Shown here piece after piece: positions 4,264 to 62,337 of a DNA stretch of 64,000 bases. Location: positions 9,936,001 to 10,000,000 of the forward strand of contig OY754476.1 in assembly GCA_963575645.1 (NCBI GenBank), written 5' to 3'. The position numbers were made by a program, and so were the translations under genes. The DNA comes from Xanthostigma xanthostigma. Its lineage: Eukaryota; Arthropoda; Insecta; Raphidioptera; Raphidiidae. How positions within the stretch are numbered: position 1 is the first letter of the stretch; the number at the start of each line of letters is the position of its first letter. The notes beneath the pieces are model-generated. The model saw only the letters and a list, made by a program, of their open reading frames with translations. It did no database searches and was not told the DNA's origin.

Positions 4264-7200
4264 AAAGTAGGTATTGCGTAATACTTCATTAAAAAAACAG
4301 TTTACTGAAAATGTAAATTTATTTGAAATCAATAAGAAATGACACAAATTTACTACAATTTGTATTTTAACAAAATGTTAATAAATATTACTGTAGTAAA
4401 TAAATTGATAACTAATACATAGTTATTTCTAATTCTTCTCAACCATTGTTTTTAGAAATAAAAAAATTTCAAATTATAACAAAAAATTGTTGACAAAATT
4501 TAGACGTAAATAAAATTCGAATTTTTTTTATTTCAATTGTATATAAATAAAATTAAAAAATATTAACAAAAAAATTGGCTTAGTAAAAATGCCAAATTGA
4601 CAGGTACAAAAACTTTTCTCTGGTTATTATCGATTTTGATTAAAATGTTATGAGAAGTAAATAAATTAAATAAATTTAAGTATAAAAAGCAATGCAAATT
4701 AACATTTTTGAAAAATTCAGAGAAAATTACGTAAATTATAAAATTGATTCATGATTTAAAACATATAATTTTCAAATGTAAGACCTAAATCATTTGTATT
4801 GAAAAATTCAAAAAAATAATTTTTTTTTTTTTAAAAGGTATATCCAATTGTATATATCCACATATATAGAGCATATGCACATATACAATAGAATATCATT
4901 TGGGGGGGGGGTGGGGGTGTGGCACTACCTCCAAAAAAAAAAAATTCATTTTAGCTGAATTGCAATTTTTACAATAGTGCCTCAAAATCACCCCAGACTG
5001 ACCTTGGTGAATCATATAAATTATAAAATTAGACAAACGTCCATAACATAAGTTTCGATGTACCTACATATTATAAAGGCATTATTTATGTAGGTACTTG
5101 ATTTATTTCAATAGAAAAAAATTGCAAAAAAGTCAAAACCCTCCTTTTTTTGTAGTCTGGTTAATAAATATGTATAGACACTACGTAAAAATGAAAACAG
5201 CCTAGTTATAAAAAAATAGGTAATTTATTTAGTTTATATTTACTTGCACAAATATCTCACTATTTTGTTTTTTCATTTAATTTTTTATTAACCAGTAAAA
5301 CTATGTTAGTGTTTTTTTTTCTAGTTTCTACGTGGTTAAAAATATTCACTCCATATAAAAGCAACTTTCAAAATAGCATACGTACACGTTCGAAATTTTA
5401 TATCCATTCACTGTTTAGAAATTAAAGGCACTGTATATTTCTACAAATAAGTCTAAGCCTAATGTTAAGATCTTCGAACGTTATTAGCTAAAAATTTGCC
5501 TCATACGTCACAAATAAAATAAAAAAAAATGTATATATATTTTTTAATTTGCTGTTGTCTCAGCCCTATTGCATAAAGACGGGTTCTCATTTACATTATG
5601 AGCCAAGTCCTTAAAAATTATGCACACCTCATTTTCTGTCAAAAAAAGTAAAAAGAACCAGAAAATCAGTTATGAGCTACAAAATTGACCATGACAACGT
5701 TTCCTAAACTTTTTCGGCTCCTTAGAGATTAAGAAAATTGTTAACAGAAATTATTTTTTTGTAATTCATGTGGCACAAACAAATCGTATATTATTCTGTA
5801 AATGTCGATTTATAACATTTGGATACAGAGTGTCCACATGTAAGCTTCATTTCTGTAGTGTATTATAGTGAACATATCACTGCTTGCCGGACGGCGCACA
5901 GTCGGTCGTCGTCAGTATAGACTTGCCGTCTTATAAACTTGCGGTATAGATCACTGACTATAGAGTATAGAATCACTGTTTGCCGGCCGAACTGTGGGTA
6001 CAGCTTTGTCTATTTACGCATCAGAAATGAGTTCGCGAACTACTTAGCTTAGGAAACGTTGGACTAGAAGATTTCACAAGAAATGCTTTTGCACAAGGAT
6101 GCATTGACTGGACCGCATACTAAAAGGAACTTTTTTACCGTTTACACACAATGCTCACAATGCATTTTTTTCTTAATTGATACTTTTAGAAGAGGCAGTG
6201 ATACAAAAAATAGACCAGTACTGTAGCTCGTGTCCATTATTGAGTAAAACTCAAAAATACGACGTAAGCCACTGATCACAGATTCAGTTTATGAAACGAA
6301 TTTTCAGTGCATCCTTGGTTTTATTAGGGCTGAAACTTGCACTAGTTAGTCTCTAACCTTAACAAGTAAACACCAAATTAAGGTATGGTTTTTATGATCT
6401 AACTCTATTCGTTACTGGGAATTTAGTTGGCGATGTTATTAGTATTACTACATATTTAAGAAAATGTAGTACTTAAATAACATTTACTTAACTTAACAAA
6501 ATACGTAATGATTTTAGATTTCTATTCACATTAAAAATGTGTATTCAATTTAATTTTCACAACAATCACACGCGAAAAATAAATTACATATACTAGATGA
6601 ATGTCATATTGATAAGTAATTGATTTGAGCTGAAATAATGATATGACTAAAAATGATGAAATATTACAAAAATTAGTTTTTGTTTTGGCAAACTATTTCC
6701 TTTTGTTGGAATGTATTTCTTTTTCTTTGCTAAATTTAAATGCAACATATATTTCTCAAAATTAACTAATATGTAAATGTTTTTTTTTATAAGGCAATCA
6801 TATTTAAGGCTTTAAGGGTGAAAACCGTAAACAGAAGAAATTGTTAAATCGTATACAGGTTATTTTGTTAATCGATATACAGACCTGGGGAATCATGTCT
6901 AGGACATAATTTCAAAGTAAACAATATTAGCGGGAAAAATTACGTTTTTAAAATCCTATTCACCCGATGAAATAAAATTTTAAATAAAAAATTTCACCAA
7001 AACACATCAAAATAATTCAGACACATTAATGCAGTACAAATATTTCAAACGTTTTTAGTATCTTAAAAATATTTTGAAAATTCACAGTCCAAGCAATGTA
7101 TTACATTAATAAACCACTATTCTACTACTAAAATTAAAGGACTTCTACGTGAAATTTTTGGATAGTATAAGTTGCCTGAATTTTTCAAGCAATACATCAA

Positions 7201-7336
7201 GTGCGAAGAAATGAAATAGGCATTCGTTAGTATATAATTGCTAAAGACAAATGTATACCACTGATGCTGTGATAAACAATGCGCTGCCTGTGTGACTAAC
7301 AAAGTGGTTCGAGTCTTATGGTCCTATTCGGTATGG
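4264..7336. other. AT-rich stretch with a G-run
   Basis: No exon or complete element recognised. It includes a G-rich run (about 4902-4920) and a locally GC-richer patch near 5885-6010 with repeated words such as CACTG and TTGCCGG; that patch is unidentified. Confidence 0.45.
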
Positions 7337-8051
7337 TTAAGGAGGTTAGCGCATGAAAAAAATAAAGATTTGTCAATAAAATTTTTTCCATACAATCATA
7401 ACGGTAGATATAGAGAATCAGTGCACGATTTGTCATTAAACCTATTTTTGTTAATGTTTAAATAAAGATTTTTTTTTAAATAACAGTAAAAGATTAAAAA
7501 AACCTTTTTATTTACATATATAAAAAAAATAAATTTATTGACCATTTCAATAATTTATGTTTAACATTTTTTGGACTAAATAACTGTATAAGTTGAACGC
7601 AACTACAATTTACATTAACAAATTTGACAACGCTGTAAGTTATTCTACCAATAATAAAGACGAGGGTTTATTATAGGTTAAAATGACACTGGCGGGAATT
7701 ACAAAATTTAAATCAAAGATATTTGTAATCAATATTATTATTTTTACTCAGTTATACCATCTATCGAAAATTAAATTTATTAATATGCAATGGTGCCAAG
7801 CTTCTTTCTTTCTCAGAGATGATTAAAAATGAATAATTAAGAAGAAGCGCTGCCATAGTCAGCTTGTAAGATTTAATTTTTTTTATGCTAACTGGTTTAT
7901 TAAGTTTAGTAAGTACTTACTTCGGCCAAACACGCCCAAAGTATAGCACTCTGAAGGCTCTGTGTAAGAAACTCTGTTTGGAACTTAAATTGTTGAATTT
8001 TGAAGTTTTTCATTTTTTGTGGCAAAAAAAGACAACAGTTTTGCCGTTAAA

Positions 8052-8476
8052 AATGCATGTAAAGGTGCGCTTAGTTAACAAAACCAACATGAGAGAATCT
8101 GCCATCCGATATACATACCCCAACCGGTATGAGCTCGGTTAGAATAGGCAATGCTGATCGAGAAACCGAGAATAAAAAGTCGAAAGAAAATAATCAAGAA
8201 ACTGACATCAAACACGAAGCTGAATGCTCAACCAGCAACGGAATAAAGGGAAGTACTATATCGGGAGAAACAACAGAAAATGTAGGAACACTGACAAAAA
8301 GTAAATTTTATCAAATTGGAGATATGGTAGATGTTAAAATTTCACCCAGCGGTGCATGGTTTGAAAGAAAATTACTAAAGATTATTAAAAAGCAGTCTGA
8401 TGATAGTAATAATGACGATTCTGAAAATAATTCGACTCTTATTAATGCAATAGATCATAATGAGACAGCTGAATGA
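8052..8476 (+). pseudogene. UHRF1-derived fragment, left copy (linker and tandem Tudor start)
   Basis: From about 8143 the reading NADRETENKKSKENN, then KFYQIGDMVDVK and GAWFERKLLKIIKK, matches the UHRF1 pattern YKVNxxVDAR..GAWFEA that opens the tandem Tudor domain. UHRF1 reads H3K9me and hemimethylated DNA and recruits DNMT1. Just upstream, MHVKVRLVN (from 8052) resembles the first residues of a UHRF1 ubiquitin-like domain, but an in-frame stop separates the two. The copy stops soon after the Tudor opening and lacks the PHD, SRA and RING domains. It is a fragment, not a working gene. Confidence 0.72.
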
Positions 8477-8924
8477 TTTTAAAAAAATTGATCTATTCTA
8501 AATTTGTTAAAAAAGGAAAAAAAATTTAATAGGATTATTTTTTAATTGATCATATATTAAGATAGTACTATTTCATGGTTATTATTAATTCAATAATCAA
8601 TTATTATTTTTAAACGTGAATTAATGAAACTTACAGTTGACAACTTGATTAAATTGCCAATCTTGAGATAATGAAATGAAATTGTAATTTTTCTTTTTCT
8701 TGTGTGTATTTTTTTAAAAAAATACGAATAAATATATTTTAGAACTATAAACATAAATTTATCAACCATTTTATTAAGAGAATTTCTTCTTAATTATTCA
8801 TTTATAAATATAAAAGCATATGTTTGATTTGTATATTTTATAATGATGTCTAGAATCTAGATTATATAAATTTTAATAATCATTTAAAAATAATGAGAAA
8901 TTAAATAAGTTCTATTATTTTACA

Positions 8925-9330
8925 GCTGTTATTGATTCAGGATTAGGTTCGTCACAAATGAACACCGTACTTTCTGAGTGTAACATTCCACCAATATTAT
9001 CCAGTATACTTCGACGTCATGAACGTGTGCTTTGAAGAGCTTGGCTGGTAAGAGTTGTCCAAAAACGATTCAAGAAAGAAGCAGTTTACAATAAAAAATA
9101 ATATATCAAAGGAAGTAACTACACAGTGTGTGACCTAACACTATGTATCATGAGTACAATGAATAATTCTTACTAATTATTTTCTTTCAGTAAAGAGTCG
9201 TCAGAAGAAGCAGTTAAAATTACAGTCAGTACTGATGGTGCTTGGCCAAAACGCGGAAATAGTCGTAATTACAAGAGCCACACTGCCTATAAAAGCAAAT
9301 ACACTATATTGCCGGCAGGGTTTGGCACAG
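8925..9330 (+). pseudogene. Relic transposase fragment, broken
   Basis: One frame reads AVIDSGLGSSQMNTVLSECN then IPPILSSILRRHERV and stops. About 200 bases on, after a TTTCAG that could be an intron acceptor, comes ITVSTDGAWPKRGNSRNYKS. From memory, the pair of motifs (G-G-x-x-Q/H-x-N..IP, then VSxDGxWxxRG) occurs in insect transposases of the Mutator-like transposase domain group. The rest is missing. It may be the remains of the enzyme that once moved the enclosing element, or a nested insertion. Confidence 0.55.
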
Positions 9331-9777
9331 CGACCCGGTTTTTATATTTGTTATGTAATGTATATTTGATTGTATAAAAAAATGAACTATTTTCTTTTTT
9401 AAAAGTGACCACCAAAATATTATTCTAAATGACGAAAAAAGAGTTTCAGCTCTTAATATTAATATTAAGAGGCGCCTCATCGCGATTTTTTATTTCCCAT
9501 TTAAATAACAGAAAAAAATGTTTTTAACTTTGGAATTTTATAATATATCAACGGATTGACGTTTCGATAAAATTGAATGCTCTATAAAAAACGGTCTCTT
9601 AGTATTTTATGATAAACCTACTCTTTCAATTCGCGGTTAAAGTTAATTTTAACGAATTTTCTACTTTTTCCATTAAACTATTAAACGTATCGTAAAATTT
9701 TATAGAACCTTATTTGAAAAATTTGCTTTTAATCGTTTTTAGGTGATTACAAACATGGAAATACAAATTTTTTTAAA

Positions 9778-10221
9778 TCATTCAACTGTCTCATTATGAT
9801 CTATTGCATTAATAAGAGTCGAATTATTTTCAGAATCGTCATTATTACTATCATCAGACTGCTTTTTAATAATCTTCAGTAATTTTCCTTCAAACCATGC
9901 ACCGTTGGGTGAAATTTTAACATCTACCATATCTCCAATTTGATAAAATTTACTTTTTGTCACTGTTTCTACATTTTCTGTTGTTTCTCCCGATATAGTA
10001 CTTCCCATTATTCTATTGCCGGTTGAGCATTCAGCTTCGTGTTTGATGTCAGTTTCTTGATTATTTTCTTTCGACTTTTTATTCTCGGTTTCTCGATCAG
10101 CATTGTCTATTGTTTTTGGTTTTATCATAAGTTGAATTACATCATTTACCTTGATGCAGTAATCAAGTATTTTATATTCATCACTTAACTGAAAATTTTT
10201 TAAATCATTCAACTGTCTCAT
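9778..10221 (-). pseudogene. UHRF1-derived fragment, right copy (ubiquitin-like end, linker, Tudor start)
   Basis: A 147-codon open frame. LSDEYKILDYCIKVNDVIQL corresponds to the C-terminal strand of the UHRF1 ubiquitin-like domain (compare YxLFDYxVxLNDxIQLL). A charged linker shared with the left copy follows, then YQIGDMVDVKISPNGAWFEG, the tandem Tudor opening. The UHRF1-like part begins right after TTTTCAG, so the captured DNA seems genomic, with an intron acceptor, rather than a cDNA. The first nine residues of the frame are not UHRF1. It differs from the left copy at a few residues. Confidence 0.75.
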
Positions 10222-10302
10222 TATGATCTATTGCATTAATAAGAGTCGAATTATTTTCAGAATCGTCATTATTACTATCATCAGACTGCTTTTTAATAAT
10301 AT
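10197..10302 (-). repeat. Direct partial duplication of the UHRF1 fragment end
   Basis: About 105 bases repeat 9773-9877 in the same orientation, including the segment coding KKQSDDSNNDDSENNST. This gives three copies of that part in the element. Confidence 0.8.
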
Positions 10303-10977
10303 AGGTATATTATAAAATTCCAAAGTTAAAAAGATTTTTTTTGTGTGTTATTTAAATAGAAACCTCTTTTTTTGTTATTTAGAATAATATTTTGGTGGTC
10401 GATTTTTTTTTGATACAGTCTAAATAATTTATAACCAAAAAATAATATTATAACGTTATATGTTTCATAGTTTGAATAAAAATAATAATATTGATTACAA
10501 ATATCTTTGATTTAAATTTTGTAATTCCCGCCAGTGCCATTTTAACCTATAATAAACCCTCGTCTTTATTATTGGTAGAATAGGTTGCAGCGTTGCCAAA
10601 TTTGTTAATGTAAATTGTAGTTGCGTCCAACTTATACAGTTATTTAGTCCAAAAAATGTTAAATATAAATTATTTAAATGGTCAATAAATTTAAATTTTT
10701 TTATATATGTAAATAAAAAGGTTTTTTTAATCTATTACAATTATTTTTATAAAAAAAATCTTTATTTAATTTTAAACATTAATAAAAATAAGTTTAAAGA
10801 CAAATAGTGTATTCTCTATATCTACCATGTTAAATTTCTATTTTTCAGTTATTAATATTTCAAAAACTAAGTGCTCAAAAATGTTCAAAAAATTTATTTA
10901 GTTTACATACATTATGATTGTATGGAAAAAATTTTATTGAAAAATCTTTATTTTTTTTCATGCGCTAACCTCCTTAA

Positions 10978-11890
10978 GACACGACAACTCTTCAAGTGCT
11001 CATCCTAACAATACTATTTATCTGAATAAATGCACACTTATCTTCTTAATTTAATTTACAAGGCTTCACAAAACTATACAAGGTATAAAATAAGAAATCA
11101 AATACCTTGGATTCAAGAAAACGTATTTAAAAATAATTCCATCATTTCATATCTTAGCAGTTTGTTACAATTAATGACATATAAGAAAGGAAATATTTTA
11201 AAACAAGTTCGTTCAAAATAATTGTGACGTCTATATAAATCAGGGTTCACACAATACACGTACGTGTATTGCTGCAGTTATTATCTACAATCTACGAATA
11301 ACCTCAAACACGTTTTGATTCTTTAGTAGGACAACAGTCCGAAAATATTGTACAATTTTCCTTAAAACAAATATACAGGATTTGATAAAATACAAAATTA
11401 ATAAATGCTTCTTTTTTCTGAATTGATATTTTAATGACATCAATTATTTTGTGTACTACTGCCGAACCAAAACTCAAAAATTAAAAGATGGAAAACACAA
11501 AAGCATTCTCACTATACAAAAATATGTATATAAAAAAAACACTGGCCTAAATTAAAATAAGTGGTAAAAATACACAAACATACAAAACGTATTATTTATG
11601 TACAAATACAGATGACGTTTCACTTAAAATGCATCATTTTCAAATCTAGGGAACACCCGTTGATGATACAAATTGGAAAAATGAATGATGTTACATGATT
11701 TAGTGTTTTAATATGAACATTTTGGACGGTTAAGAATCATCATCGATTTGTGAAAATGATTAGAAAAGAGTTTTGAACAAAGCAGATTATTTTCTTCGTT
11801 TGAACTCTTACAAAATTGTTATTAACCTTGTGAACATTAAAGTACACTGATATAAAATTACTAGATTTATCGATTTCATATCGATTAGAT
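10978..11890 (-). other. Downstream flank / probable 3' untranslated region of the KASH gene
   Basis: The stretch directly below the stop codon is AT-rich and must contain the 3' untranslated region; I could not fix a polyadenylation site. The short ORF at 11030-11221 on the plus strand shows no recognisable similarity. Confidence 0.5.
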
Positions 11891-20600: not shown

Positions 20601-23600
20601 GACCAAATTTGCTCCAAAATAAATGAGGGTTTCAAAAATAATTTTGTTTTTAGAAAAATCAGTGGCGTACTACATTTTTCTTCAAAAATATTCAGTTCAA
20701 ACCCCGTACGGACGTCACTGGTAAAAATTTTAAAAAATCTTTTACGCCAAAAAATGCTTCTTAAAGATGTGTACAAAATTTCATAAAAATATCTAAGAAT
20801 GCTAAGAAAATTATGAGAAAAAAGTTATATTTTTCTTAAAACTCAAAAATTAAGAGGTTTAGGACATATTATGTTGATACTAACTTTTCTTCTTACAACC
20901 ACCCAAAGATTCACGCCCTTAAGTATCGGCACTCAATTAATAAACACCCTGTATACCTATAAATAAGATTCTCGTGTGCGTTTTTTTTTTGTGTTCGCTA
21001 AAAACACGAGAACTACTGAACGGATTTGAATGGGTTTTTTCTAATTCGATAGTTTATTTCTTGGAGTAGGTTTAGGGCTATAATAACTGCCCGTCCGTCG
21101 TACGAGGGCTTACAGATATTCGCGTGTGATTTTCTGTGAGTGCGCTAAATACAGGAAAGCTACTTATCTGTATATTAAATTTGTATCCGGGCAAAACGGG
21201 ACCGGTTCGCTAGTATATTACTAAAAACTTAAAGGAAAGCAAGGAAAAAAGTATTATAATTAATGTTGCTTGTCTGTAATTAATTTTATACATAAATACA
21301 GTATCGATAAGGTATAATACTTATTTAATAAAAAAACTTTTCCAACGCATAAAAATTAACCTGAGCCTGTATAAAGTCTCACCTGAAAACTAATACAATT
21401 TAATCTAATCTATTTCCAGGTACCGTTCGTCGTTCCGCTATATGTTGAACAACATCACAAAGCTTCCTCGCAGAGTCGCAACACACAAGCTTTCACATAT
21501 GGTATACTTCGTATCAAAAACATTTCTATAGTAAATAAGCTTACAGAAAACATGACTTGCTAATATGAAATTTCCCTTCGGTGTAAATAGGATAAAGTTA
21601 ATTATTGATTTTAATTCCTATAGCCCAATTGTACGCTAAACAACGTATTGGGATTTGACACATTGGCGGCGCATTATACCAGTGATCGCCTTGTGGTCAA
21701 AATTGGAGGTACCCATTTAAAAATTCCAAGGTTACCCCCGCTACTGACACCAGGAGGTGGGGGGGTCAAGTTTAGTGTCGCTGAATAGGTCTTTTAAAAA
21801 TACTGTTTTTTTTTCAACGTGCAGAGTATTCGAAATAATTGACCACCCTGGTATTTATGACACACCTATATACAGCTGGCGGCTATGGTATTATATTAGT
21901 ATTGGTGATGTGCCGGATCGTTGAAATGTATAATCCGCGGATACGGATCTGTATACGGATATTTGGTTTCAACTTCCGCAGATACGGATACGGATCTTAA
22001 CTTTCTTAGAGTACGCGGCGGTAAATATTGCACATCGACCTTTGGAAAGAGACTATCTGTTATGGGAAAAAGTTATTGACCTCTTTAAGAATTAACTCTC
22101 ATAACAGATTGTCTCTTTCCAAAGATCGATGTGCAATATCTCATTATAAAGATATTTTTTTAGTACCTTTGAGTTATGTATTATTGGTATGGTACTCACT
22201 ACGATAAATGTTTGCAATATAAAGATGCCAAATACGATTTTAAAAAATAAAAAATAATCTGAATGGAATTTAACAGTTTTTCATTATTACCTAATCACCT
22301 ACATATATAAAATTTCATCTATGAATTCAAAATTATAATAAGGTAAAAGATTCGTAAAAATTCCGCCAAAAACTAACGGATACGGATTTTTCTTCTCCCT
22401 CGGATATCCGCGGATACGGATATCAGGCACATCACTAATTAGAATCATAAAAAGCATAGTGAATGTTGTGTTTTAAATAGCGACAGCAGGAAGAAAATAA
22501 AAATTAGTTATTTAAAAAAAGGAGACATACAACTGTAAATAAATGAAACTGTCATGTTTTTTTATTTAAGAAAAAACTGAATTAATTAATTAAACATAAC
22601 TTTAATCATGATAGTACATTGAATATCAAACTTAGAATGAGAATCTTTTTAATAGTTGACGCTTAGATTTGTACTCTACTCGTCATCCAGTTATATAATT
22701 ATTTTTATCATTTAAATAACGCAATACATAACAGAAACTAACTAAAAAAAAATCTGAAATCCTGGATATGAGTGAGGAAATGTTAAGAAAATCCGTATAA
22801 ATTTTCAAAATTCGTAGATTCATTTTTAAATTTTAGGATCAGAGTGCATATATAATGTCAGTAAGATGCGTACGTTAAGATCGGTTCTAGAAGTGGTATG
22901 AGAAAGCCGCGGCGATACCACTTGATGTAACATTAGTCTGACTCCGAAATAATTTGCATATAAAGTAGCAGAGCTGACGGCGACAAAACTATACTATAGC
23001 GGGGTGTGAACCTGTGTACCCTAGCTCACAGATACATACAAAGACTCATGCGGTGTCAGTAGATGACACCTTTCAAGCTGCTTCCTTCTTTTTACGATTC
23101 TTTAGAAGTTTTCCACTCGCTTCCCTACTATAAATAGTGTAGACCTCAACAAAAATTAACTCATAATTTTGAGATCATCCAGATACATTTATTTTTCGTT
23201 TTATGATACAGTTAATGTTCGACCGAAACTAGTTTTTACAACCGAAACCGAATTTCGGTTCCTGTAATAGTTTCGACTGAAACTGAAACTTCTTCAAGGG
23301 CAATTCTAGTGTATCTATTTTAAGCTAAGTTACCTGATTGATTAGAAACTATAATAAATATAGTTTAAAAAAACTAAAAAACACGCTTTATATCGAACTA
23401 AAAAGTAAAAAATATTTTTTTTTAAATAAGCTTGAAACAATAATGAATAAAAAATACAAGTATTATTGTGAAAAAAGCGTGGGGCGCTTCGTTCCACATT
23501 TTCGTACATCGAGCGCCCCACGCTTTTTTCACAATAATACCTGTATTTTTTATTCATTATTGTTTTAAGCTTATTTTAAAAAAAATATTTTTTAGTTTTT

Positions 23601-26600
23601 AGTTCGATATAAAGCGTGTTTTTTAGTTTTTTTTAACCTCGATAAGTCGAAAGACTCTGTAAGTCGAAGAAAATGTCCGTTCCCTTCCCTTCAAAACCCA
23701 AAATTTTAATTTGATATATTTATACGATTTTAGCTTCTTAAAAATGTAATTTTAATTGCTAAACACGCTTTCAAATAGCCAACATCTATTGTTATATAGG
23801 TACTAACCTGGCAGCAAGTATCTTGTTTTTCGGAAAGCACTTTAGCAACATCTCGGACCGAAGTAGCGACGTCAGCGGAAACAGCGCCTCCCTGTAAAGC
23901 CTTGTCTAGCATTCGAAGCGTGTTCTCATCACCTTTCAAAGCACTCTGAAGTTCTTTCAGGCGAGCTTCAAATTGCGACCAGACACTTGACAAACGTTGC
24001 AGGTTTACCAAACGTTCTGACACACTGAAAAAGAAGACATAAATATATCAAGCCGTCAAAAGAAAACAAAAAAAAAAATACAATGAAATTTTATCACTTT
24101 ACGTTTAAGATAACGTATTTTTCTTTTACAATCTGTATGAATTATATTATGGAACACCCTGTATGATAATGAAATGTTTCTTTCCTCTAATACTAACAGT
24201 CGGGCACTACTATACAAATAACGCCATATACTATTGTCAACTTTTACTTCATTTCGACTTATTTTCTAAGCTAGTTAGAAATAGAACAACCCCTCCCCTT
24301 TTTCCGTTCGCCTCTTCACAGCTATTAGTTCCCGTATCTTATGTAACAATATCATCTAAATTCTGAATGCTATTTTGATGCAATATATAGATTGATCCTA
24401 CCCTAGCACTGGCTATGCCAAGTTGGGTAGATTAATTCCAAAGAAAGTTTATTTTATTTTGTACCTTGAATGTATAACTATTATTGGAATAAATTATTTC
24501 TAATTCTAATTTAAAACTTTTATTGCATGATTTTTAAATCAGTCCGGAGTTAAGAATTAAAAGTATGTATTATTCTTTGCACATAACTTTGGTTCATATT
24601 TTTATATTTGTCCGGTCCGGGGCTTCGCCCGAGTTTATAGATTGGCACCGTTTTTTTTTTGTCGACTTACGATGCAAAATTGGTCTCCACGAAAAGCGAT
24701 TTTCCACCCTGAAGGTCCATTCTAAATATTGGTGAAAAAATATTTGAAATCGAGTGGGCAGTTCCGGAGATTACGTCTTACATCCAAACTTAACAGTTTT
24801 TACCGAATAATTGAGAGATCCATAATATTGTCCAACTTAGAAATAAGCAATAATGCAAATTTCGACGTTTTAAACATTTCTTTGGTGTTTCAATGTGTTA
24901 AAATTTATGTCCGGCGAGGTTACGACAGCGCTCCAGAAAACAGAATTATGCACTAACGTAAGTTAGGTAGGGTCACGTTTGGGGAAAATCGATAATATTT
25001 ATTTTATATTGTAAGTTACTATATTTGATGATAATATTTATTTTGCTATTTCTACACGTATGCAATTAGACATACTAAATTTACTCAAGTAATTGGATTT
25101 GATTTGACTGTAACCGTATTTTTATAAATACGTGATACAAAATTGAGAACACTTATAAATAACTAGCGGTCCCACCCCGTTTCACCCGGGTGCAAAAGAA
25201 CGAATGGGGAGAGGTACATGAGTACGCACGTTCATCTCAGTTTACCGAGATGAATGTTTTGTCCCAATTTCATAATGATCGGAGTTACCGTTCAAAAGTT
25301 TTTGTCGGACGGACAAATTTTGAGTTATATTTTGCAACATTTTTCATTGATGCTCCGCTCCTATTGGTGTGATATTATACAGCCTATGGCCTTCCTCGAT
25401 AAATGGACTATCCAACAAAAAAAATGCAATTCGAACCAGTAGTTCCTGAGATTAGCGCGTTCAACCAAACAAACAAACTCTTCAGCTTTATATATTAGAA
25501 TACAAAAAGCATCAGGGGGATACGATTATAAAGCTTAGAGATCATCTTCACTAGAAATACCTATAAGCTTTCAGCAAAACTACCACCACATACAAGAATT
25601 ATGCGGAATATGAATATAAAAAACTATATAAAAATATGTATATGGACACCATAAATTTTTTAATAGTATGCACTACTGTAGCATCTCAAAAAGTTGCTGC
25701 TTGTAAAGGTAACGTTTTCGACACTTCCCTTCCTGCGCGATATATGAGACGACTTCCCACTACAATATATGACACAAATTGTTCTCTTTATCGTTTGAAA
25801 AATAAAAAGCGCTAAACAATTTCTTATATGAAAAGTTCGTTTTGGTTTGATTTAAAAAAAAACACAGGAACAGAGTCACAGTTTTGGCAAATGTCTTAAG
25901 TAATTAACTATTTGACTCCAAGAAATTAAAATCGTGTCTGCCATTGAACTTGTTCGATTGTTTTAAGTTATGGCAAATGCTTCAAACTGTTTATCCCTCG
26001 GACAAACAAAAAATTTCAAAATAATTCAGTTGTTGGCTTTATTACAATTTCAGTTGATACTAAATAAAAACAATTAACAAATAAATAATTGCTGGCGAGT
26101 CTGTTATCTTATTTATTATTGGACACGGATATATTACGATATAAAAATAATTTTTATTGTTAGTAAGTTTAATAGAAGGTAGTAGAAAGCACGAAGACGA
26201 ATGGTCAATAAGAAGGAAGTAATAGTAGTCGATTTCCTGTTTCGGAGGTAGTCGGTGGAATAACACGATGATATCCGATGTGAATAGACGTGTGTAGACA
26301 GACCTTGCGGATGTTTACGTTTGAACCCCTAACCCTTAAACATGACCAATATTAAGATATCGCCACGGGGACTTGTCTATCGGCAAGGGGATATATGTGT
26401 GACCATCGTCCAGCGTTCACTGCTTAATGTAATATGCACCACGAGTTTACATAGTCAGAAATATTAACGTCACCCACTCAATTCAACAGTTGTTCATTTT
26501 ATAAGGAGAGGGGAGACAGAGAGAGACTATTATAGACGCACGACAACCGAAATCATCATTGTTCATTTTCAACCGACTTAAAAAACAATGGCTATTAATT

Positions 26601-29600: not shown

Positions 29601-32600
29601 CCTAGCATGTCTAAAAAAGTTTCATTTCAAAAATACTCCGAAAAATTCCCCGCTCACTTTCCTTCAAAAGTATTAAGCCTAAAATTTAGTACAGTTAATT
29701 ATAATATGTATGGAGTCGGTGTATGAATTATATTCAGGTATGACTGGCCTCTTTTTTACTGCAATAAAAAGCAACGTAGGTAGCTTTTTCCTGTTAGGTA
29801 CCTTTTCACTTTGTACGTGTCTCACCCCATTGTAGACCAATATTGCAATCCTTTACATCTACTGAAGAATTTTAGCAGTTTTAATGGCATAAAAATATAG
29901 TTTAAAAAAAAACACGCTTTATATCGAACTAAAAAGTAAAAAATATTTTTTTTAAAATAAGGTTAAAACAATAATGAATAAAAAATACTAGAATTATTGT
30001 GAAAAAAGCGTGGGGCGCTTTGTTCCACATTTTCGTACATCGAGCGCCCCACGCTTTTTTCACAATAATACTAGTATTTTTTATTCAATGTTGTTTTAAG
30101 CTTATTTTAAAAAAAATATTTTTTACTTTTTAGTTCGATATAAAGCGTGTTTTTTAGTTTTTTTTAAACTATATTTATTTTTCACTTTTTAGTTTAATAT
30201 AAAGCGTGTTTTTTAGTTTTTTTAAACTATATTTATTTTCCACTTTTTAGTTCGATTTATTGTCAAAAATTTGCCGAAAAATACAATTTTTTTATTTCGG
30301 TGTGGACGGGATTTGAACCCACGACCGGTGAATCCGAGAGTTGACGTCAGCGAAGACTAGCGCCTTAGACCGCTCGATCAACGATTGCTCTTACAGTAGT
30401 GGCATAACATGCTAACAATAATAAACCACTTGCTGTAGTCCAAACGAGATTACAAACATACATACAAACTTACAAGTGAAACTAATATAAAGCGTGTAAA
30501 AATATGCTCACCTTTCGTGAGTTTCACTCCATAATCGATAAAGATCGATAACGCTGTCCTTGAGATGTGCACTGGTAGCAGCTTGTGCCGCTGTCTGAAG
30601 ACCTGGAGGTGTGCCACCGTTGGAAATGACGTCGCTGTTTCCGTTGACGGTTAATGCATTGGAACAATCTGTCAAAAACCTGTGCACTGCAACGTTTATG
30701 TGTAACAAGATACGTTTCCGATCTTGTAAAGTTGATAATTCAGCCTGAAACAATAGCAAAAAAAAAAAACAATTCAAACAGTATTCATGGTTATTTAGAG
30801 GACTATTGATTATCTCATATAATAATTTCTATTATAGCTGCAAAATCACTTTTTTTGGTGATTTTTAAGCAGTGGGCGTAACACTAGAAGCATGTAATTT
30901 TTTAAAATTTTGTTATCGAACTTTAGAAAAAAATAGTGAAGTGGATTTGATTTATGACAATTTTTAACATTGGATCCGAAAATCGAAATCAAAAATTTTT
31001 ACGCACAATAAAAAATTCATAGCACTAGAAAACATATTCTGATATGTAATACAATTATTAGATACGAAAATAAAATTTTAGAAAAATTTTGTTGAAGAAG
31101 ATAAAAATTTTAAATTATATGTACGAGTATTTTAATATAAAATATTTCAGAGTTTAGAAAGAATAAAATTTCATATATTATGTACTACAAACGTATACAA
31201 AAAAATGGGCAACTATCAATCTCGCTTAGTTTTTAATAAATTAATATCGGGAGCGCGCAACAAACCAGTATATTTTCATCTATTATGAACTCAAAAAAAT
31301 ATTATAAACGTTAAATTCATTTAATCGTGTAGGTAATTAAACTTAACAATGAAAATTCCTAACTAAACAAAAAAAATCTATCTCATATTTTTATTTGAAA
31401 ATATAATGTAGTATAATACCCCGTTTGTTTTCTTCTTTTACGTTGTCAAGTATTAGTTTTTTTAACTTTTATTTTGTTTCTAACATAATGTCAACGCGAG
31501 CGAAGTGGAATCAAAAATGTTATCCTGTGAGTTGCATCTACATGTACCAAATTTCATTGAGATCGGATTAGGAGTTCGAGAGTTATGGCGGAACAGGTAG
31601 ACAAAAAACGAGCAATGACTTCGTATCATACAAAATGCAAAAATTTTTTTTATAAAAATAACTTAGAGGAGAACACCGTCAACAGTTTTATTTTAATATT
31701 GATAATAATAATTATTATTATCAATATTAAAATAAAACTTTACTTTACCATATTAATTATAATTAATATGGTAAAGTAAATTTTTTCTTCTTAATTAAGG
31801 GTGGGGGTGCAAGGGTAAATAAAACTCATGTGGGGTGCCCCGATAGAAAACATATCAAGAAACACTGGTCTAAAGGTACATTCGGCGTAAACGCAGCCTA
31901 AGAAACCGAAAAGTGGCCACTGAACACTAGTTCCTGCAGTTTCATGCAATGTTTGTACGCACTAAAACCAAGAAGAAGAAGACGAAGTAATAAGAGCTCA
32001 CTTCTAGTCGGCGGAAGGCCAAGTAGTTCAGAAGTTCCCTAAGGAATAGACTAGAAGCTGGGGTTATATACACCCTGCACAGCCAGACATAGCTGTTCAC
32101 TAGACTACATGTATGCTGACCACTGTTGGCCGGTGGGCATTTGGTCATAAACATGAGTTATTTATGGTCAAGAAGTCATCAATGTCAAACTGAAATGGCA
32201 TATATTCCCGACTCCTGTGAACATATTATATATATGTGGAAAATTTACGGTTACTGGAAAAAATACTGCAATACTGTAAACCCAGCAACTATAAGGTATT
32301 TCTATAAGATGCGACAAGACCAAGGAAGCTAATTTTGGGCAGATAGACGCTCCAACCAAATTATGGGTTTATTCTATAATTTAACATCATATCTATAACT
32401 GTAAACTTATATTATAGAAAACTTCGAAGTTATAGAATAACGTCGGAAAGCATTATTTTGAGTCGTTTATATATAGTGGAGCGTTTTCTATTATGCCGGC
32501 ACTTCACATGGCTATTTGTATTTGTGTATTTGGCATATTTGGCAAACAATTACCAAGTGTGGACAGTCTATTTGACAAAGTGTTACCGTGCGCTTGTCGG

Positions 32601-35600
32601 TTTTTCGAGGCACAACAAAGGAGTCAAATAGGCAAATACGCAAATAAACCGTCCACATAATGGCCATATTCAGAAGCGCACGCGCCCTGAACCTGTACGG
32701 ACGTGCAGTATTTTTGTGTCTGTGCTGTGAGCGAGAACTGGAACAATTACAATTGAAAATGAATTGGGACAAAGAAACAGTGCTAAAATTCCTGGAATTT
32801 TTAACCTTGCGTTCTGCTGCCAAATGTTTGTGTGTTTGCTATTTGACTGCCATGTGTGGATGGTCGTATTTGCATGTTTGTCTTGAACGTCATATATTTT
32901 GCCAAATACAACAAACACCCAATAGCGAACACAAATAGCCATGTGGAGTGCCACCTTTACACGTGTTGCCAATAAGGAACAGTAAAATGATTGAACGAAA
33001 AATATTTTTGGATAACATATTTGAATGATATTTTGATACAATCTGTATACATATTACCGAAGCTATTATTGTCATTCGTAGTATCAAGTTTTCTTGATAA
33101 TTCCAACCGAACTATGAAAAAGTGAATATCTATTTAAGGAAAGTGAACGTGACAAGTTGTTGTACTTCTCCTTAACGGTTGCAAAGTAAAAATTATAACA
33201 ACATACTTTTCTCTATACCGACAATATTTTTTTAATAAAAAATGGCGTCTTTATTTTATTTATGATCTCTTAAACAAAACATTTTTCTTGACGATCATAC
33301 AAAAAGTGATAGCAATAAACAAGACAGTTTTATAAAATACACGAACAATTGAAAATTAATGCTATCCTATATTATTATTCTGTTCGAATTCTCAAAAACA
33401 ACTTCAATTAAAATAATTATCTTGTGCGCGCGTGCAAGTAAATCAAAAAATAATGGCGGCTATAAGAAAATGTCTACGATAGAGACTTAATTACATCTCG
33501 AAAAACTGACAACTGAATATTTGAAAAAATAGACAAAGTATAAATTTTAAATATGTAAAAAATGAAGACCAAATTCATATTGCAGGGTAGATCTGTTAAT
33601 TATTTTTGTGCAATCGCGTACCCTTTAGTAACAAATGTAATAGTAGAATATATCTCGTTTATGGAGTTCCCGCCTAATTTATTTTCAACTAGCGGCCCGG
33701 TCGTCGTTTCTTAAGCACATTGCGCGCATTGAGGAGTGTGAGATTTGGCATAGTTAAATTTCATATAGAGAAGAACTGGAGAACGATAAAATTTATGTAC
33801 CTATGTGTCACAAATACATTAAATTACATAAAATATAACTTATGTTCCTACACTGTAAAAAATATTATACACTGTAAAATATTAGCGGAGTGAATTACGG
33901 TCGAATTTCGACCTCAGACGGGGCCGCTAGTATATATAATTTGAGTCCAGTACGATAACTCGATGTGCCCAAATTTTGACTTTTTTTTAAGTCATAGAAA
34001 ACGCTAAATTTTTATGTTCCAAAAAGAGCTTTGCGGATTATTCACAAATTTCCTTAAAAATACGTAAAAACTTTCGTCTTTCTCTGTCATTTTTTGAATC
34101 TAACCAATCAGGAATCACATATATATACGTCATAGCAACTGGGGTAGAATTACTGTATTACTATCTCACTTTGTATACACCACCCCGTAATTGATTTTAA
34201 AAAATTCCCCCAAACGCCTTCCCCTTTTCACTGCACAAAAAAACGCCATCGCACCGACACGACCTCGTAATTGTTTTTTTAAAAAACTCCCCACCAAAAG
34301 CCTTCATCTTTTCACTGCGCAAAAGAAAAATAATTTTTAAAAATCTATTTTCCGCGTATAAAACGGTTAATAATACTGTTATATGTTATTTAAAATAATG
34401 ATTGTGTATTTCCAATGGATATTTTGCACATCGAGTTATGTACTTCTAACCATATAATTTTATAAATAAAATTGTCGACCAATTTTTCTCAGACCAATAT
34501 ATTGACAAAAAATAATAAAATTACAAATCAATATAAATTGGTCTGAGAAAAATTGGTTATTTGAAGAGTTCTATTCAGACCTTAATCAAAGATTTGCATA
34601 TACCTAATTTTATATTTGAAAAAAAAAATACATGCGCAAAAAAATTTCAAAAATTACGAAGTATAGAACTTCACCTGTATAAAAAAAATACTACATATAC
34701 GCCCATTTTAAAACCAATTTCGATTTAAGACATTCGCAACATCTCTGATGAGCCACCTGTATAGTTGACAACAGTGGGACATTAGTATGCCAGTGAGTTA
34801 CAGCAGACAGACACGCGCATTCCAATCTAATTCAATTTGCAATCAACAGCCAATCAATTGAATCGAATTCTGTATACAGAGTGGTTTTGGGCATGGTTAA
34901 GCATTAGATATGAACCTTCAAGCTTAGACAATAGTGCATGTGTACAGGCTATGTACGTTTTTTTTCGTATGCACAGTCCAGCCGCTATATCTTGACGAAA
35001 AGTAAAGGTATAAGCATTCGTTGAACCACGAAAAGCGTGTAATTCCAAAGCATGTCACTTCAGTAGGAAATTGAATATTTTTTATATAAGCATACCGTAT
35101 TTCCCTACATGTTTGATACTTGCAATGTGCAAGCATCCAATGATCCTAGTTTTAAATAAATATAGTTTAAAAAAAACTAAAAAACACGCTTTATATCGAA
35201 TTAAAAAGTAAAAAATATTTTTTTTAAAATAAGCTTAAAACAATAATGAATAAAAAATACTAGTATTATTGTGAAAAAAGCGTGGGGCGCTTTTTTCCAG
35301 ATTTTCGTACATCGAGCGCCCCACGCTTTATTCACAATAATACTAGTATTTTTTATTCATTATTGTTTTAAGCTTATTTTTAAAAAAATATTTTTTACTT
35401 TTTAGTTCGATATAAAGCGTGTTTTTAGTTTTTTTGAAAGTATATTTATTTTTCACTTTTTAGTTTGATATAAAGCGTGTTTTATAGTTTTTTTTAAACT
35501 ATATTTATTTTCCACTTTTTAGTTCGATTTGTCAAAAATTTACCGAAAAAAAAAACAATTTCTTTTTCGGCGTGGACGGGATTAGAACCCACGACCCGTG

Positions 35601-41600: not shown

Positions 41601-44600
41601 ATTATATAAAACTTTATTTGACATAAAATCAATACACGTTCTGTTATTTATGAACATGCAACTTGCTATATTTGAATGTTAGTCGTTCAAAAGATTCATG
41701 CAAGGCTAACTTGTTACACAGATGTTTGTAATAAACGCATATTTTATAAAGTTTTCAAAACAATAATGAAAACGTTAAAATTTGAAATTCTAGCACTAAA
41801 AATACTGGAAAGGATTATCAATTATAATTTTAGAAAAATATTGGTAAAAACATTTTAGAAGATCTTTTATTTATATGTATTAAAAAAGAAAAAAAAAATA
41901 ATAATAGTACGCTCGTGTTAGTTTATTAGACACAACCCACGCTTTTATTATTCTGAACCTAAAACTATAAAATAAATTGAATTAAATTTTAAGAACGAAG
42001 AAATAATCTAATAGATCATTAACAAGATTTGTGAATTTTTCATACGGTATAGTGCGTACTACTATTTAATAACTTTAAAGAATAGCTTCTGTTGCTACAT
42101 TGTTAAAACACCCATTGTTACATGTCTATATTAGAAAAATTTATTTCTCAAACAATGTCACCATCGGGATACGAACCCCGAATCTTTCCACTATTGCGGC
42201 GGACTGAGTTACATTACTCCACAGTGACACAGTAAGGTCAATTCATCATTCTAATATATAGCCATTTGTAACTGTATATTTCACATCATGCGAGAGCTAA
42301 TTTTTATCTTAGATAACGTCAGATATGAACCTTCACAGAAGTGAGAGCTGTGGGTGTTTCAACAATGTAGCTATTCTTTAAAGTTATTAAATAGTAGTAC
42401 GCACTATACCGTATGAAAAATTCACATTTGTTATTAAAAAGGCTGTTCAACTATATGAACATGAAAAGTTTTCGCTGTTATCTTTCCTAATGAAATAGAA
42501 ATTGTCTTGATTTAGGAATCAGATTAATATAAGAAAACAACTTTCATCGTTGATTCACCCACAGCTCTCACTTCTGTGAAGGTTCATATCTGACGTTATC
42601 TAAGATAAAAATTAGCTCTCGCATGATGTGAAATATACAGTTACAAATGGCTATATATTAGAATGATGAATTGACCTTACTGTGTCACTGTGGAGTAATG
42701 TAACTCAGTCCGCCGCGATAGTGGAAAGATTCGGGGTTCGTATCCCGATGGTGACATTGTTTGAGAAATAAATTTTTCTAATATAGACATGTAACAATGG
42801 GTGTTTCAACAATGTAGCAACAGAAGCTATTCTTTAAAGTTATTAACAAGATTATTTACTCTAAGCTCCCATTAATGTTTTATCAACCTTATGTGTATAG
42901 CAAAAAAGAAGTTCGCATATTTTGAATTTTGATGAAAACAAATGAAATATTCACAAGGCTAATATTTAGGACTAGCCGTTATACGCGGTTATACACGATA
43001 GTGAATCTCCTAATAAAAAAAGAAACAAACTGGACATCGTTAACCGAGGAGATTTAAGATTAAATCTAACTAAATTGATGCCAAATGTTGAAAATTTATT
43101 ATTAAAAGCATCAGGTTCATCCCTCACACTAAAAGCATTTATTTTTTGCTTAGTTATTTTATGTAAGAGAAATTAAATTTTAATTTGAATATAATTAATA
43201 AATGCACAAAACTAAACATTTCACACTACGTTTCACTACCGTTATAAATTTAAATCGTTCAAAGTGAGTAGCACTATACCGGTTGTCAAAAATACATTTG
43301 AAATTAATGAATTTGCAAAAAATCAATATCAGATAAGCAGGGGGTCTACCCAAAACCGAAAAACATGGCAAGTGGTCTACGAGACAAAACAGTTTGGGAA
43401 CCTCTGATTTAGACGAAGGACGGCTGAATTCGATAGAACAGCCTGTATAATATACTGTGGTACAAAAATACCGTTTAAGATCACAGATCATACAAATATG
43501 GATCGTGTCTCACTGCATAGTAACAGTGATGTCATTCGTGAAACCGGATTTTTTTATAAACACATTTTATACACACTAATAAACTCTTTTTTGTACGCAT
43601 CTGTTTATAAATTTTGAATAATTGATACTTAAAATCCCACATTTATTTAGATATTTATTAAATAATTAAAAGTAAAAAAGTGACGCATAATTGCAGTGAA
43701 CGAAATTATGTGCAAACCCGATATTTACAAAAAAATCATAAAAAAGAGAAATACAGAAAAGAATGTAATTTAAATAAATCAAACACTTTCTTCTTTAGTG
43801 AAAATAAAAGCGGATGTATTTAATGTGAAATTTGAACATACGATTCTAATGTAACGTAGATAAAAATAAAATACATGTGACCTAGAATCTGTTTGTATAC
43901 GAAATACCTACATCATTTAAAATAGTTCTGTTTTATTTTTAGAACGTTTTTAAATAATTAATTCTATACTATGTCAGAACATGAAGTTATTATTTAATAT
44001 ACAAACTGTTTTTAAAGTTTTTCTAGTCTGCAAAGTCAGTTTTGCGAACAAGATTTTAAATTGAGTCATAAGGACCTAAAGGCCGCTGCACACGAGGCTA
44101 AACGCTGCTAGGAGTTCTGCTAGCCGGTATAGGTTGGGTACGAAGCTGGAAATGATGCTGCTGCGGGCTGCCTTACTAGCTCAGAAGATAGGTTTTAAAA
44201 TTAGAACAGGGGCTATTTTCCCTACTAGATTTGTTGCTAGGTGTGAGCAAGAACCAATCAGGAAGCAGTATCTTCACGTGGGCACTTGAACACCCACATG
44301 GCGTCATTCTGCCAGACAACAGATACGTTTTGCTCTGTGTTTATATTCGAACTGTCACTGCGCGCGCACCAGATCTATCCACAAAACACGCTTGAAAAAT
44401 AATCTTGTGTGAAGCGAGCACTTAACAGCAATCGAGAAAAAAAGCGCTAGAAAACTAGTAGGCAAATCTAGCAAGGAATTTAGCAGCGTTTCTAGCCTCG
44501 TGTGCAGTGGCCGTAATTCAGTCAATAAATATTTACTGGATCAAATTCGAGCCCTGATCGGATCATCAGATTAGCCGAATAAATCTAGATTCATTACGCC

Positions 44601-47600
44601 ATGTCAAACACTGATTTAGTAATTTTTATTTATCAGTATTACTGAATAAAATACAATTTTTGTTTACCATAAATTCCATTTATATTTAACTAAAAAATAT
44701 AAAAATCGCACTGCCTATATATATTTTTTTGCGAAGTAAAATATTTGCTCCCTGCCAACCGAGACGAGTTTGGATTAGTGGGACTCAATTATACTCTGTT
44801 TTATTTTTAAACGGTTTTATTTAACTTTACGTTCTTTATTTGTTTCAAATCTTTCGACCGATTTTTTACCCAATTACCGTTATCCAATCAAGTTGAAATT
44901 TTACATACATGTGTCATTCTGATGACATTACAATATTAAGATTAAGATAACTAGCTAACCGACCTGGTTTTCGTTGAGTGCAGATTGCGTTTTTGAATTT
45001 TTCGCTGTCTTCCCGTTAAACGATTGAGTCGCCAAAAAAATATAACATAATTCTATTTTCATGTTTTTTATCTATTTTTAATAACAGCGGACCTAAATAA
45101 GATATTCAGAATAAAGTTGATATGAAGATTTCAACGCTGCGTTAAGCGGGAGGCCCAAGATGCTGACTTGGCTATAACTCGCCTATTTTCAATATTTTGA
45201 CATTTTACAAAGAGTTCTTTTTTATCGAGAAAAGTAAGCTCTATTGAAATGTAAAATAATAAGTAGGGTGTTTAAAAAAAATTAATTTCATAACGTGGGT
45301 GTCTTGTAAACGCGACTTAATACTACAAAAAATTGGTTGATGTCGGAAATTCTTGATAACATAATTCAATTTCATTAAAAAGAACGAAAGCGTTGACAGT
45401 GTCATTTGAAATTTAAATGGTAAGACATTTTTGATTTGAAAATCTCAACTTCATAGAATCAAAAAATAAGTTTTCACAAATCTTGACTGTAAGGATCATT
45501 TTTTTAAATCCGCACATGTAATATTATCATATTTACCTAAATCATCTGTTTGTGTTGCTAACGTTATCATTTTTTTAGAAAACAAAAAGCACTAACCCAA
45601 CAAAAAAATAAAAAGTTTAAATATCACAAAAATTTTATTAACTTAACATCACAGTTGGCTATGACTTAGTAAAAACAAACATTTTCGCACACATTTGTCA
45701 CAAGTCAAATGTAAATGATAGTTTTCTTATCAGACACGCAAGTTTAACTTATAAAAATAACTTCTGTTTAATCAAACACGAACACATACTTCGATTAAAT
45801 AACATTTGAACTTGTGATCGAGAAACTTTGACGTGAATAACTGCGCTTTAAACAAGCGAACATTTCACTATGCACATTTATGATACAAATATGGCTAGAA
45901 TGACTTGAAACTGGCATGACAAGAATAGTGATCTACGTCATACACACCTGGCGGGTATACCGGCTCAGGTGGGATCCTGTACCACACAGTTGTATAACAG
46001 CTGTCTCAAAAATATGTGTCTTAAATTTAGTTTATTTGGCGAGTTATAAAAAAATAATGTTAATGTAAATTTTTACGATACGCGTGGCCACTGTGCCAAA
46101 TATCTGTAAGGTCAAAATTACCAGGATGAAGTAGAGGTGGTACAAACTGTTATTTTCTAATAACAGTTCCGTTCCTGTTGCGCTTACGGAACAGTTCCAA
46201 AAACCTGTTACTTTTTAACAGTTCCAACGTTGGAACCTTGACATTCTCGGAATAGCTTGTAACATGCAACGTATAAAAATTTCAAATTATGAAATGTGTA
46301 TTATTTGTATTTTTTCGTGAATTAATTCTATTATTCAAGTTTAATAATTTAAGGTACCTAATTATTAAAGAAAAACAAATAAATTTGTCGACAATAGGTA
46401 TATTAAAAATATACTTTTACAGAATGTAAGTAACAGTTGTTCTGCAGAATGGATATACTATGACAAAATCAAATAATATTATTTCACCACAGTTCAATAT
46501 TATTTTCTTAATCTGGCGTATGTAATATAAACTGAATAAGCCGTCCAGTTTTGTCTGGAACTTTGCGACGCATGTTAATGTGATGGTGTGATACTAAAAT
46601 CGACTTTACGTACAATGTACCCTAGGCGTAGGTGACGAGCATAACTTACTGTTGCAGTTTGCAACGTAGGTACAATAATTGACAACGGGAACGGAGAATG
46701 TTTATTTTATGCAGAAGATCGCCCGTTATGTTATTCGGAACAGTCGAAGCATTGGAACAGCCTGGAACAGGTATTTTATTATACTGACAACTGTTCCAAT
46801 CTGTTCCTCGTTCGAAACTGTTCCAAAATAACTGTTCCTAGTATTTTGTATCATCTCTAGGATGAAGTTGCGCGCAAAAAAAGGCTGCCAACAGAACAGA
46901 GGTAGAGAGCCATTGACTTGCAAGAGTGGTCATGTCTTTCGTCATACTTCGTTGTAGTCATTTTTCAGGTAACTGAGTGAGGAGTATAGACTATGGTAGA
47001 GATGCACGTATCATCTAAATCAGGGATGTCAAAGATACGGCCCGCGGGCCGCATCCGGCCCTCAAATTATATCAATACGACCCACGACCAGAATCTATCC
47101 AGTGAGGATTTTAAACGGCATTCAAGGCCACTGCGTATTTTTAAAATTGCTGGATCCTCAAGCTCAATATAATTTTCCATTTTATTACCTTTATATGAAA
47201 ATTGATTTAAACTTAATAAAGAAGTGTTTTAGTTTTTAATTTAGAGTCTGGTCCGCTAACACACTCTAAATCTTATAAATGGTCCTTTAGAAAAATCAGT
47301 CTGACAAGTGACAGCCCTGATCTAAATAGCTGTATTTATGTCATTCTCAACCCAATTCTTGTATTATTTATTTTCAATAAATTAATAACTAGTTTTTAAT
47401 CACGTCAAAGAAACTTCTAACAGTAACTCATTTCAAATCTTCTTGGTTTTCGGGCTTGTATGCCGTGGTCTATTGGTATTTCTACCTGACGTTTCGTCTA
47501 CAACTGCGGTAGACATTATCAAAGGCGATGTGGTAGCGGGCGAAGTGTCCTTCTAGGCTGCTCACAGGTAACGACACTTTGGCCGCTACCACATCGCCTT

Positions 47601-60672: not shown

Positions 60673-62020
60673 TGCGTCAGTAATCATCCGCTCGAAGATC
60701 TATCGTTTCTAATTGATGTCAGTATTGTTTAAGAACCGCTGTTATATACTATTCTTGAAGTTTCAATTCCAATAAAAGAGCAATAGGTGCGATTGTAGGC
60801 GTGTGATAGCGTTTAATTTCAATCATCTGAAGTGCATTGCGTGAGTTCAAACAACTGCAAAACAAAAAGCAGTATCCCATAACAATCACCGCCTACCTAC
60901 AGTAGGTAGGTGATATTATATCAATTCTTACTGGTCGATCCACAAAAAAAATTTACCCGACTGCGGTACGAAGTGTTGCCAATACGAAATTCAAAAAATA
61001 GCTAGATGTAAGGTAAAAAATGGCTAGAAATGACTAGAATAGATAATTAATATATCATATTCTTAACACCCTAAATTCTGCGCAGACAAAATTAATAAAA
61101 GAACTTACACTTAGAAATAGAAATAAATAAACTTGAAACATGCAACGAAAAGGTGGAGCTTTATAATCAAATTAATAGACAAAAGCGGTTTCATCCAGTT
61201 ATTAATTTGTAAACATCAAAAAAGCGCGCTATTCAAAATTAAGTTATCACTTTTGTAAAACAACCTCAAATTACAAATACACACCCTGTAAATAATTATT
61301 ATAAGTTATTGTATTCGTTATTTTTTAACAATGGAAGAACTTTTATTTTAAATTGTTAATAATAATTAACAATAACACATGTGTAATCACTAATCTCTAA
61401 TTATATGAAACCTCTTCTGAGAAAGAGGGAAGTTTTAAGTGATATTTAAATTATAAGAAATGCACGCAAAGGTAAAATATATATTTACGTACAGAGGTTT
61501 AAGAAAATGTCAGCCAATCACAACCTGCTAACAATTCAAGCTTAGCGTTCCGCAACAAAGCGGCACACTGCATAAATTTGTTGCCAAAAATAACCGCCAT
61601 TCACAATCCATATAATTAGAGATCAGTTGTAAAACACACATACTAAATAATAATAAATGGAAGAGTATATACCTAAATGATAAAAATATCATCATTTCAA
61701 CATTTAATTTATGATTCTATAAATAAGATACTGACGAATTTTAAAAAAATGAGTTTTTTCAATTTAATCCATTAAATCCGCATCAACATAGACGAAATCC
61801 AAACGCATAAATACAGTAACACATGGATTGAGTGCAATGACATGAAAAAGCTGTTGCTATAAATAATTACATTAGATATCTCCACGTTTGAAATAGAAGT
61901 ATTATTACAGTGCGTAGATTGATATGAGTATCTTTTAGAACAGAGGTGCGCAAACTGCGGGACGCGTAAACTTATAATCGCGTCAATTGTGGACACACAT
62001 ACATATCCGTACGTATAACC

Positions 62021-62337
62021 AGTGATGTCAAAGATACGGCCCGCGGGCCGCATCCGGTCCTCAAGCTATCTCAATACGGCCCGCGACAAGCATCAAGTGA
62101 GGATTTTTTGATACCTGACATCAATGAGCTTATCAAAAACAAGAGACCTCAGGTGTCTGCATCCTCAAGCTCAAGATAATTTACTCTTTTTATTACCTTT
62201 ATATGAAAATTGATTTAAACTAAATAAATTAAAATTTTAATTTAGTATGTGTTTTATTTTTTAATTTAGATTCTGGTCCGCTAACACATCCTGAATCTTA
62301 TAAATGGTCCTTTAGAAAAATCAGTCTGACACCCCTG
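62021..62337. mobile_element. hAT MITE with CGGCCCGCGGGCCG core, copy 2
   Basis: Shares GATGTCAAAGATACGGCCCG and the right end CTGACACCCCTG with 47021-47319. Flanking 8-mers GTATAACC and GTATAAAC match at 7 positions. Confidence 0.82.

Follow-up and report, generated by a model that had tools for sequence, protein, structure and literature searches.

A putative decayed Kolobok-like transposon with inverted fragments of a UHRF1-type gene in Xanthostigma xanthostigma

Results

Termini and inverted arms of the element

The window, i.e. the whole stretch of DNA analysed here, comprises 64,000 nucleotides of contig OY754476.1 of Xanthostigma xanthostigma, and all positions are counted from its first letter. 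It harbours a transposon-like element of 3.6 kb (7341-10973) with a TTAA on either side (Table 1). Inward from each TTAA, both termini are the same over 22 bases, starting with GGAGGTTAGCGCATGA, and they continue into inverted arms of about 0.4 kb. The outer stretch of the arms is identical between left and right at 64 of 66 positions (TTAA counted in), and the inner stretch at 325 of 358, with 14 gap positions; about 85 nt of the right arm (10827-10911) have no counterpart in the left one. The tetranucleotide TTAA by itself is frequent, with 815 occurrences in the window. When the window was scanned for matching inverted 16-mers beside TTAA, allowing at most two mismatches and 60 to 12000 bases between them, 38 pairs were found, 11 of which contain at least five G/C; 14 of the 38 are the outer pair of the element and 13 pairs nested within it. 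By comparison, ten first-order Markov windows gave two pairs in total, none with at least five G/C. In addition, exact inverted matches within the element reach at least 79 nt, versus at most 20 nt in 50 simulations. The TTAA flanks and long inverted termini described by an earlier, sequence-only reading of this DNA are thus borne out by the identical ends, the arms and the scan.

Table 1. Positions of the features of the element in the window
Feature	Position	Strand	Evidence or remark
Left TTAA target-site copy	7337-7340		Sequence and TTAA-pair scan
Left terminal inverted repeat	7341-7750	+	Outer part ends at 7401, inner part is 7403-7750; terminus 5'-GGAGGTTAGCGCATGA
Left UHRF1-type copy (linker, beginning of tandem Tudor domain)	8143-8490	+	Within open frame 8093-8476; Pfam TTD
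Transposase remnant 1 (PF20700)	8925-9032	+	In open frame 8880-9035
Transposase remnant, continuing in shifted frame	9035-9091	+	Read from sequence; in joined query
Transposase remnant 2 (PF20700), with the stretch VSTDGAWPKRG	9192-9374	+	Only the first part matches
Inner inverted repeat (patches)	9401-9547	+	Pairs with 10306-10406; the two flank the right UHRF1-type array
Right UHRF1-type unit, 427 nt: end of ubiquitin-like domain, linker, start of tandem Tudor domain	9765-10191	-	ORF 9778-10227
Third, partial UHRF1-type copy (unit tail, direct tandem)	10192-10300	-	108/109 identical to 9765-9873
Inner inverted repeat	10306-10406	-	Partner of 9401-9547
Right terminal inverted repeat	10473-10973	-	Arm-to-arm alignment
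Right TTAA target-site copy	10974-10977		Sequence and TTAA-pair scan

No second copy of the element is present in the window, in which all the self-comparison matches of the element fall within the element itself. We also searched several collections that are not meant to contain the host. The exact terminus pattern had no match in viral contigs or prokaryote genome contigs, and the inner-arm pattern had none in viral contigs. The UHRF1-type peptide gave 3 candidate stretches in the viral contigs and 47 in the genome contigs, and the transposase peptide 7 in the viral contigs, none of which was confirmed as a relative. The left arm had no match among phage records.

UHRF1-type fragments

Between the arms lie two opposite copies of a UHRF1-type coding fragment (8143-8490 on the plus strand and 9764-10111 on the minus strand), which are identical at 335 of 348 positions. 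The best PDB match of the right ORF is a UHRF1 chain (E 2.3e-7; query 11-125, chain 49-165), and a further UHRF1 chain matches with E 5.5e-6 (chain residues 49-161). Among the 25 distinct PDB sequences matched up to E 10, 18 are UHRF1 or an Np95-like relative, the first nine included, and the remaining seven are other proteins, all at E 0.13 or above. The Pfam TTD family is the best one for both the right (E 7.3e-6) and the left copy (E 1.2e-5), with scores of 26.3 and 25.6 bits that lie under the Pfam cut-off of 29.1; the match spans 44 of the 155 positions of this Tudor profile. The end of the ubiquitin-like domain is found in the right copy only, where the domain is incomplete, and is missing from the left copy. 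It was aligned as QLSDEYKILDYCIKVNDVIQLMIK to the human domain, the letters of which had been entered by hand, and scored higher than each of 2000 shuffles. The two opposite linker and tandem-Tudor copies and the end of the ubiquitin-like domain in the right one, which the sequence-only reading had assigned to UHRF1, are supported by the tool results; UHRF1 stands on top in PDB, and the domain order of the right copy matches. A candidate UHRF1 start codon in the left half (8053), on the other hand, was rejected, since it gave no PDB hit, no Pfam family and a shuffle p of 0.38.

A third UHRF1-type piece of 109 nt, overlooked earlier, follows the right unit in tandem at a spacing of 427. All three copies end in the same tail, and at one junction this tail is joined straight to the start of the fragment, as expected if one acquired piece was copied repeatedly. 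This arrangement bears on the motif TTTTCAG (10195-10189, minus strand; surrounding minus-strand sequence ...GATTTAAAAAATTTTCAGTTAAGT), which the sequence-only reading had likened to an intron acceptor, probably a misreading. The TTTT closes the 109-nt block that is repeated, of which the two instances differ by one base, and the CAG is an in-frame Gln codon at the point where the UHRF1 similarity starts. The simplest and most likely reading of the motif is thus the junction of a tandem duplication. It is possible that the fragment begins exactly at a true acceptor, for which the T run is no evidence. Because the supposed pyrimidine stretch belongs to the duplicated block, the acceptor argument for a genomic origin of the fragment is weak.

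Transposase remnants and classification

Scraps of a PF20700 transposase, also overlooked before, sit on the plus strand between the UHRF1-type copies. In remnant 1, residues 14-49 of the open frame 8880-9035 (8919-9026) match positions 77-112 of the 357-position profile (E 1.8e-4); for remnant 2, the frame 9177-9377 aligns through its residues 7-37 (9195-9287) with positions 143-173 of 357 (E 1.6e-4), each alone below the Pfam cut-off. A query that strung the three pieces together, with X at the breaks, reached E 8e-12 and 45.2 bits (cut-off 26.5); joining favours a single score, and the scores obtained without such help are the separate ones. A working transposase from the present copy is unlikely, judging by the shifted frame and the end of the match at profile position 173 of 357. 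When 10 distinct open frames were compared with Pfam, out of 41 in 6800-11500 that are 40 aa or longer, no match to a THAP domain, a lineage accessory protein, an exonuclease or a piggyBac transposase was obtained, the transposase family matched being PF20700; three frames had no NCBIfam match. A THAP or accessory protein could have been lost from this decayed copy.

Pfam's own name for PF20700 is 'Mutator-like' transposase. The family probably covers Kolobok transposases as well, and we stop at the label 'Kolobok-like'; a literature search found no paper that joins two of the terms Kolobok, YqaJ and Mutator-like transposase. The published signature of Kolobok consists of a TTAA target duplication and 5'-RR...YY-3' termini, which the sources state to be unlike piggyBac (PMC9587614; PMC6004289). 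The element has both, its termini being 5'-GG...CC-3', and for this reason we read it as a probable decayed Kolobok-like transposon. In published Kolobok families, the encoded DDD/E transposase usually comes with THAP and H2CH parts (PMC6004289), whereas PF20700 scraps and a UHRF1 fragment are found here. The piggyBac superfamily shares the TTAA target duplication with the element, but its termini are other than 5'-RR...YY-3', and those of the element are of the Kolobok type according to PMC9587614.

Other repeats and open frames in the window

A near-perfect hairpin with TTAA at both outer ends lies at 42066-42846 (302-nt arms, 98% complementary, 177 nt apart), and may be another TTAA-type miniature element. 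The sequence GGCCGCTGCACACGAGGC or its complement occurs six times with at most three mismatches (37565, 40000, 44081 and 59404 on the plus strand; 44495 and 59829 on the minus strand); TTAA precedes two of the four plus-strand sites and TAAA the other two, and the sites perhaps mark the ends of a second repeat family. A foldback repeat, about 270 nt long and with arms of 113-126 nt that are separated by 23 nt, is present three times (23364-23632, 29895-30163 and 35167-35435), and a repeat with GGCCCGCGGGCCGCATCCGG, presumably resembling hAT-type repeat ends, twice (47018-47095 and 62017-62094, 87% alike). The minus strand of 48722-53697 holds a row of long open frames of 132, 163, 128 and 296 aa with no Pfam match above the cut-off, which are perhaps exons of a host gene. 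Six long ORFs of the window were compared with Pfam; four had no match and two had matches below the cut-off only (E 0.03 and 0.062), and a PDB search with one of them gave no match. No tRNA or Rfam family was found in the window.

Discussion

Proposed origin of the UHRF1-type cargo

Transduplication is recognised by a host coding fragment that lies between transposon ends with a target-site duplication, and this is the arrangement found at the locus. According to a review, a flanking target-site duplication is evidence of a single element, and the fragment is commonly surrounded by inverted or direct repeats (PMC8616336). Of the readings that the sequence suggests, a putative capture of gene DNA fits the element best. 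We consider it probable (about 0.7) that the element is a decayed, probably non-autonomous Kolobok-type transposon that acquired a UHRF1-type exon fragment, which was later copied in inverted and tandem orientation and is neutral baggage now. The ancestor would have encoded a PF20700-family transposase, of which frame-shifted scraps persist. A fragment of about 0.43 kb of a UHRF1-type gene would have been taken up, most simply via template switching while an excision gap was repaired, a route suggested by general knowledge, and a later rearrangement would have given the inverted and tandem copies, which presumably moved with the element. This scenario retains from the sequence-only reading the UHRF1 identity and the TTAA transposon, both backed by tool results; the support that the supposed acceptor had lent to a capture of genomic DNA is weak.

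It is rather unlikely that the UHRF1 DNA was inserted or rearranged into a resident element after its last jump and was never mobile cargo. Such a history would agree with the single copy known from the window, and with the inner inverted repeats of its own that bracket the cargo on the right. The UHRF1-type arms differ at 13 of 348 positions and the inner termini by substitutions at 19 of 344 (gaps omitted), which is not significantly different (p 0.28) and gives no sign of a different age of termini and cargo. However, the two opposite copies are arranged with rough symmetry around the middle of a single TTAA-bounded unit, which copying within an active element explains more easily than insertion after the last jump.

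As for the present role of the cargo, it is most likely neutral baggage, because it is too short for the domains and there is no sign of protein constraint. Of the 13 differences between the copies, 11 precede the stop of the reading frame that both share; nine of these change an amino acid and two are silent, versus 77% amino-acid-changing expected without constraint; 11 changes are too few to speak against weak constraint. From ATG, the right frame has 147 aa and the left one 115 aa. Although neither is interrupted and both run to the same stop, it is scarcely credible that they yield a small protein interfering with UHRF1, given the short Tudor match, a ubiquitin-like domain that is incomplete or missing, and differences that are mainly amino-acid-changing.

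The inverted geometry makes an RNA hairpin, in line with the double-stranded RNA suggested by the sequence-only reading, physically possible, with a low probability. A transcript over the inverted copies would fold into a long hairpin and be turned into small RNAs against the UHRF1 transcript, and thus lead to less UHRF1 and less methylation maintenance. The arms of 348 nt share 191 of 328 21-mers and have a predicted duplex energy of -551.6 kcal/mol; hairpin-RNA loci that silence genes are reported from Drosophila simulans (PMC10317233; PMC10292708), and a review raises the possibility that captured gene fragments turn into small RNAs (PMC8616336). On the other hand, the loop of 1273 nt contains AATAAA at 8727 and 9090 on the plus strand and at 8770 and 9489 on the minus strand, as well as four ATTAAA per strand, which resemble poly(A) signals but are common in AT-rich DNA, and we regard this course of events as very improbable. 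The chances are slighter still for the full sequence of events in which a Kolobok-type transposon with the inverted UHRF1 duplicate gives rise, by read-through, to small RNAs against UHRF1 and so eases the host's methylation control of transposons.

Comparison with known gene-carrying transposons

The capture of host coding fragments by cut-and-paste elements of animals seems little documented; the 2008 paper on Turmoil-1 gave it as unknown in animals before (PMC2572040). In the open-licence literature, neither a UHRF1 capture nor a Kolobok with host gene cargo was found among the matches listed; a match for UHRF1 dealt with duplications of that gene. The element would be a further example of transposons gathering scraps of host genes, with a hypothetical effect on methylation. 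UHRF1 and DNMT1 are reported to be both lost in some braconid wasps (PMC10538959). If copies of the element and small RNAs are found, they would provide a natural test of whether methylation maintenance can be acted on by transposons.

Gene fragments within plant DNA transposons are well described, and the plant Pack-type elements resemble the present one in carrying host gene fragments between DNA transposon ends, but according to the review they are MULE, CACTA and Harbinger elements of plants (PMC8616336). In fungi, chromatin or methylation gene DNA is reported to be amplified via transposons, with a hAT that carries histone H3 and a DNA methyltransferase gene amplified in Zymoseptoria tritici as examples (PMC6710886); of the element described here, one copy was seen. 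A close precedent has been published for C. elegans, namely Turmoil-1, a member of the Harbinger superfamily whose inverted termini contain fragments of rsp-2 and cpg-3; like the present element, it is an animal DNA transposon with host coding fragments in inverted duplicate (PMC2572040). It is described there as a Harbinger, which usually has 3-bp target duplications, carries fragments of other genes and retains an intron in its cargo; a single full copy and eight fragments are given for its genome, whereas the element in Xanthostigma xanthostigma has TTAA and a UHRF1 fragment and is known from the window. The captured domain in Turmoil-1 is likewise described as not under purifying selection (PMC2572040).
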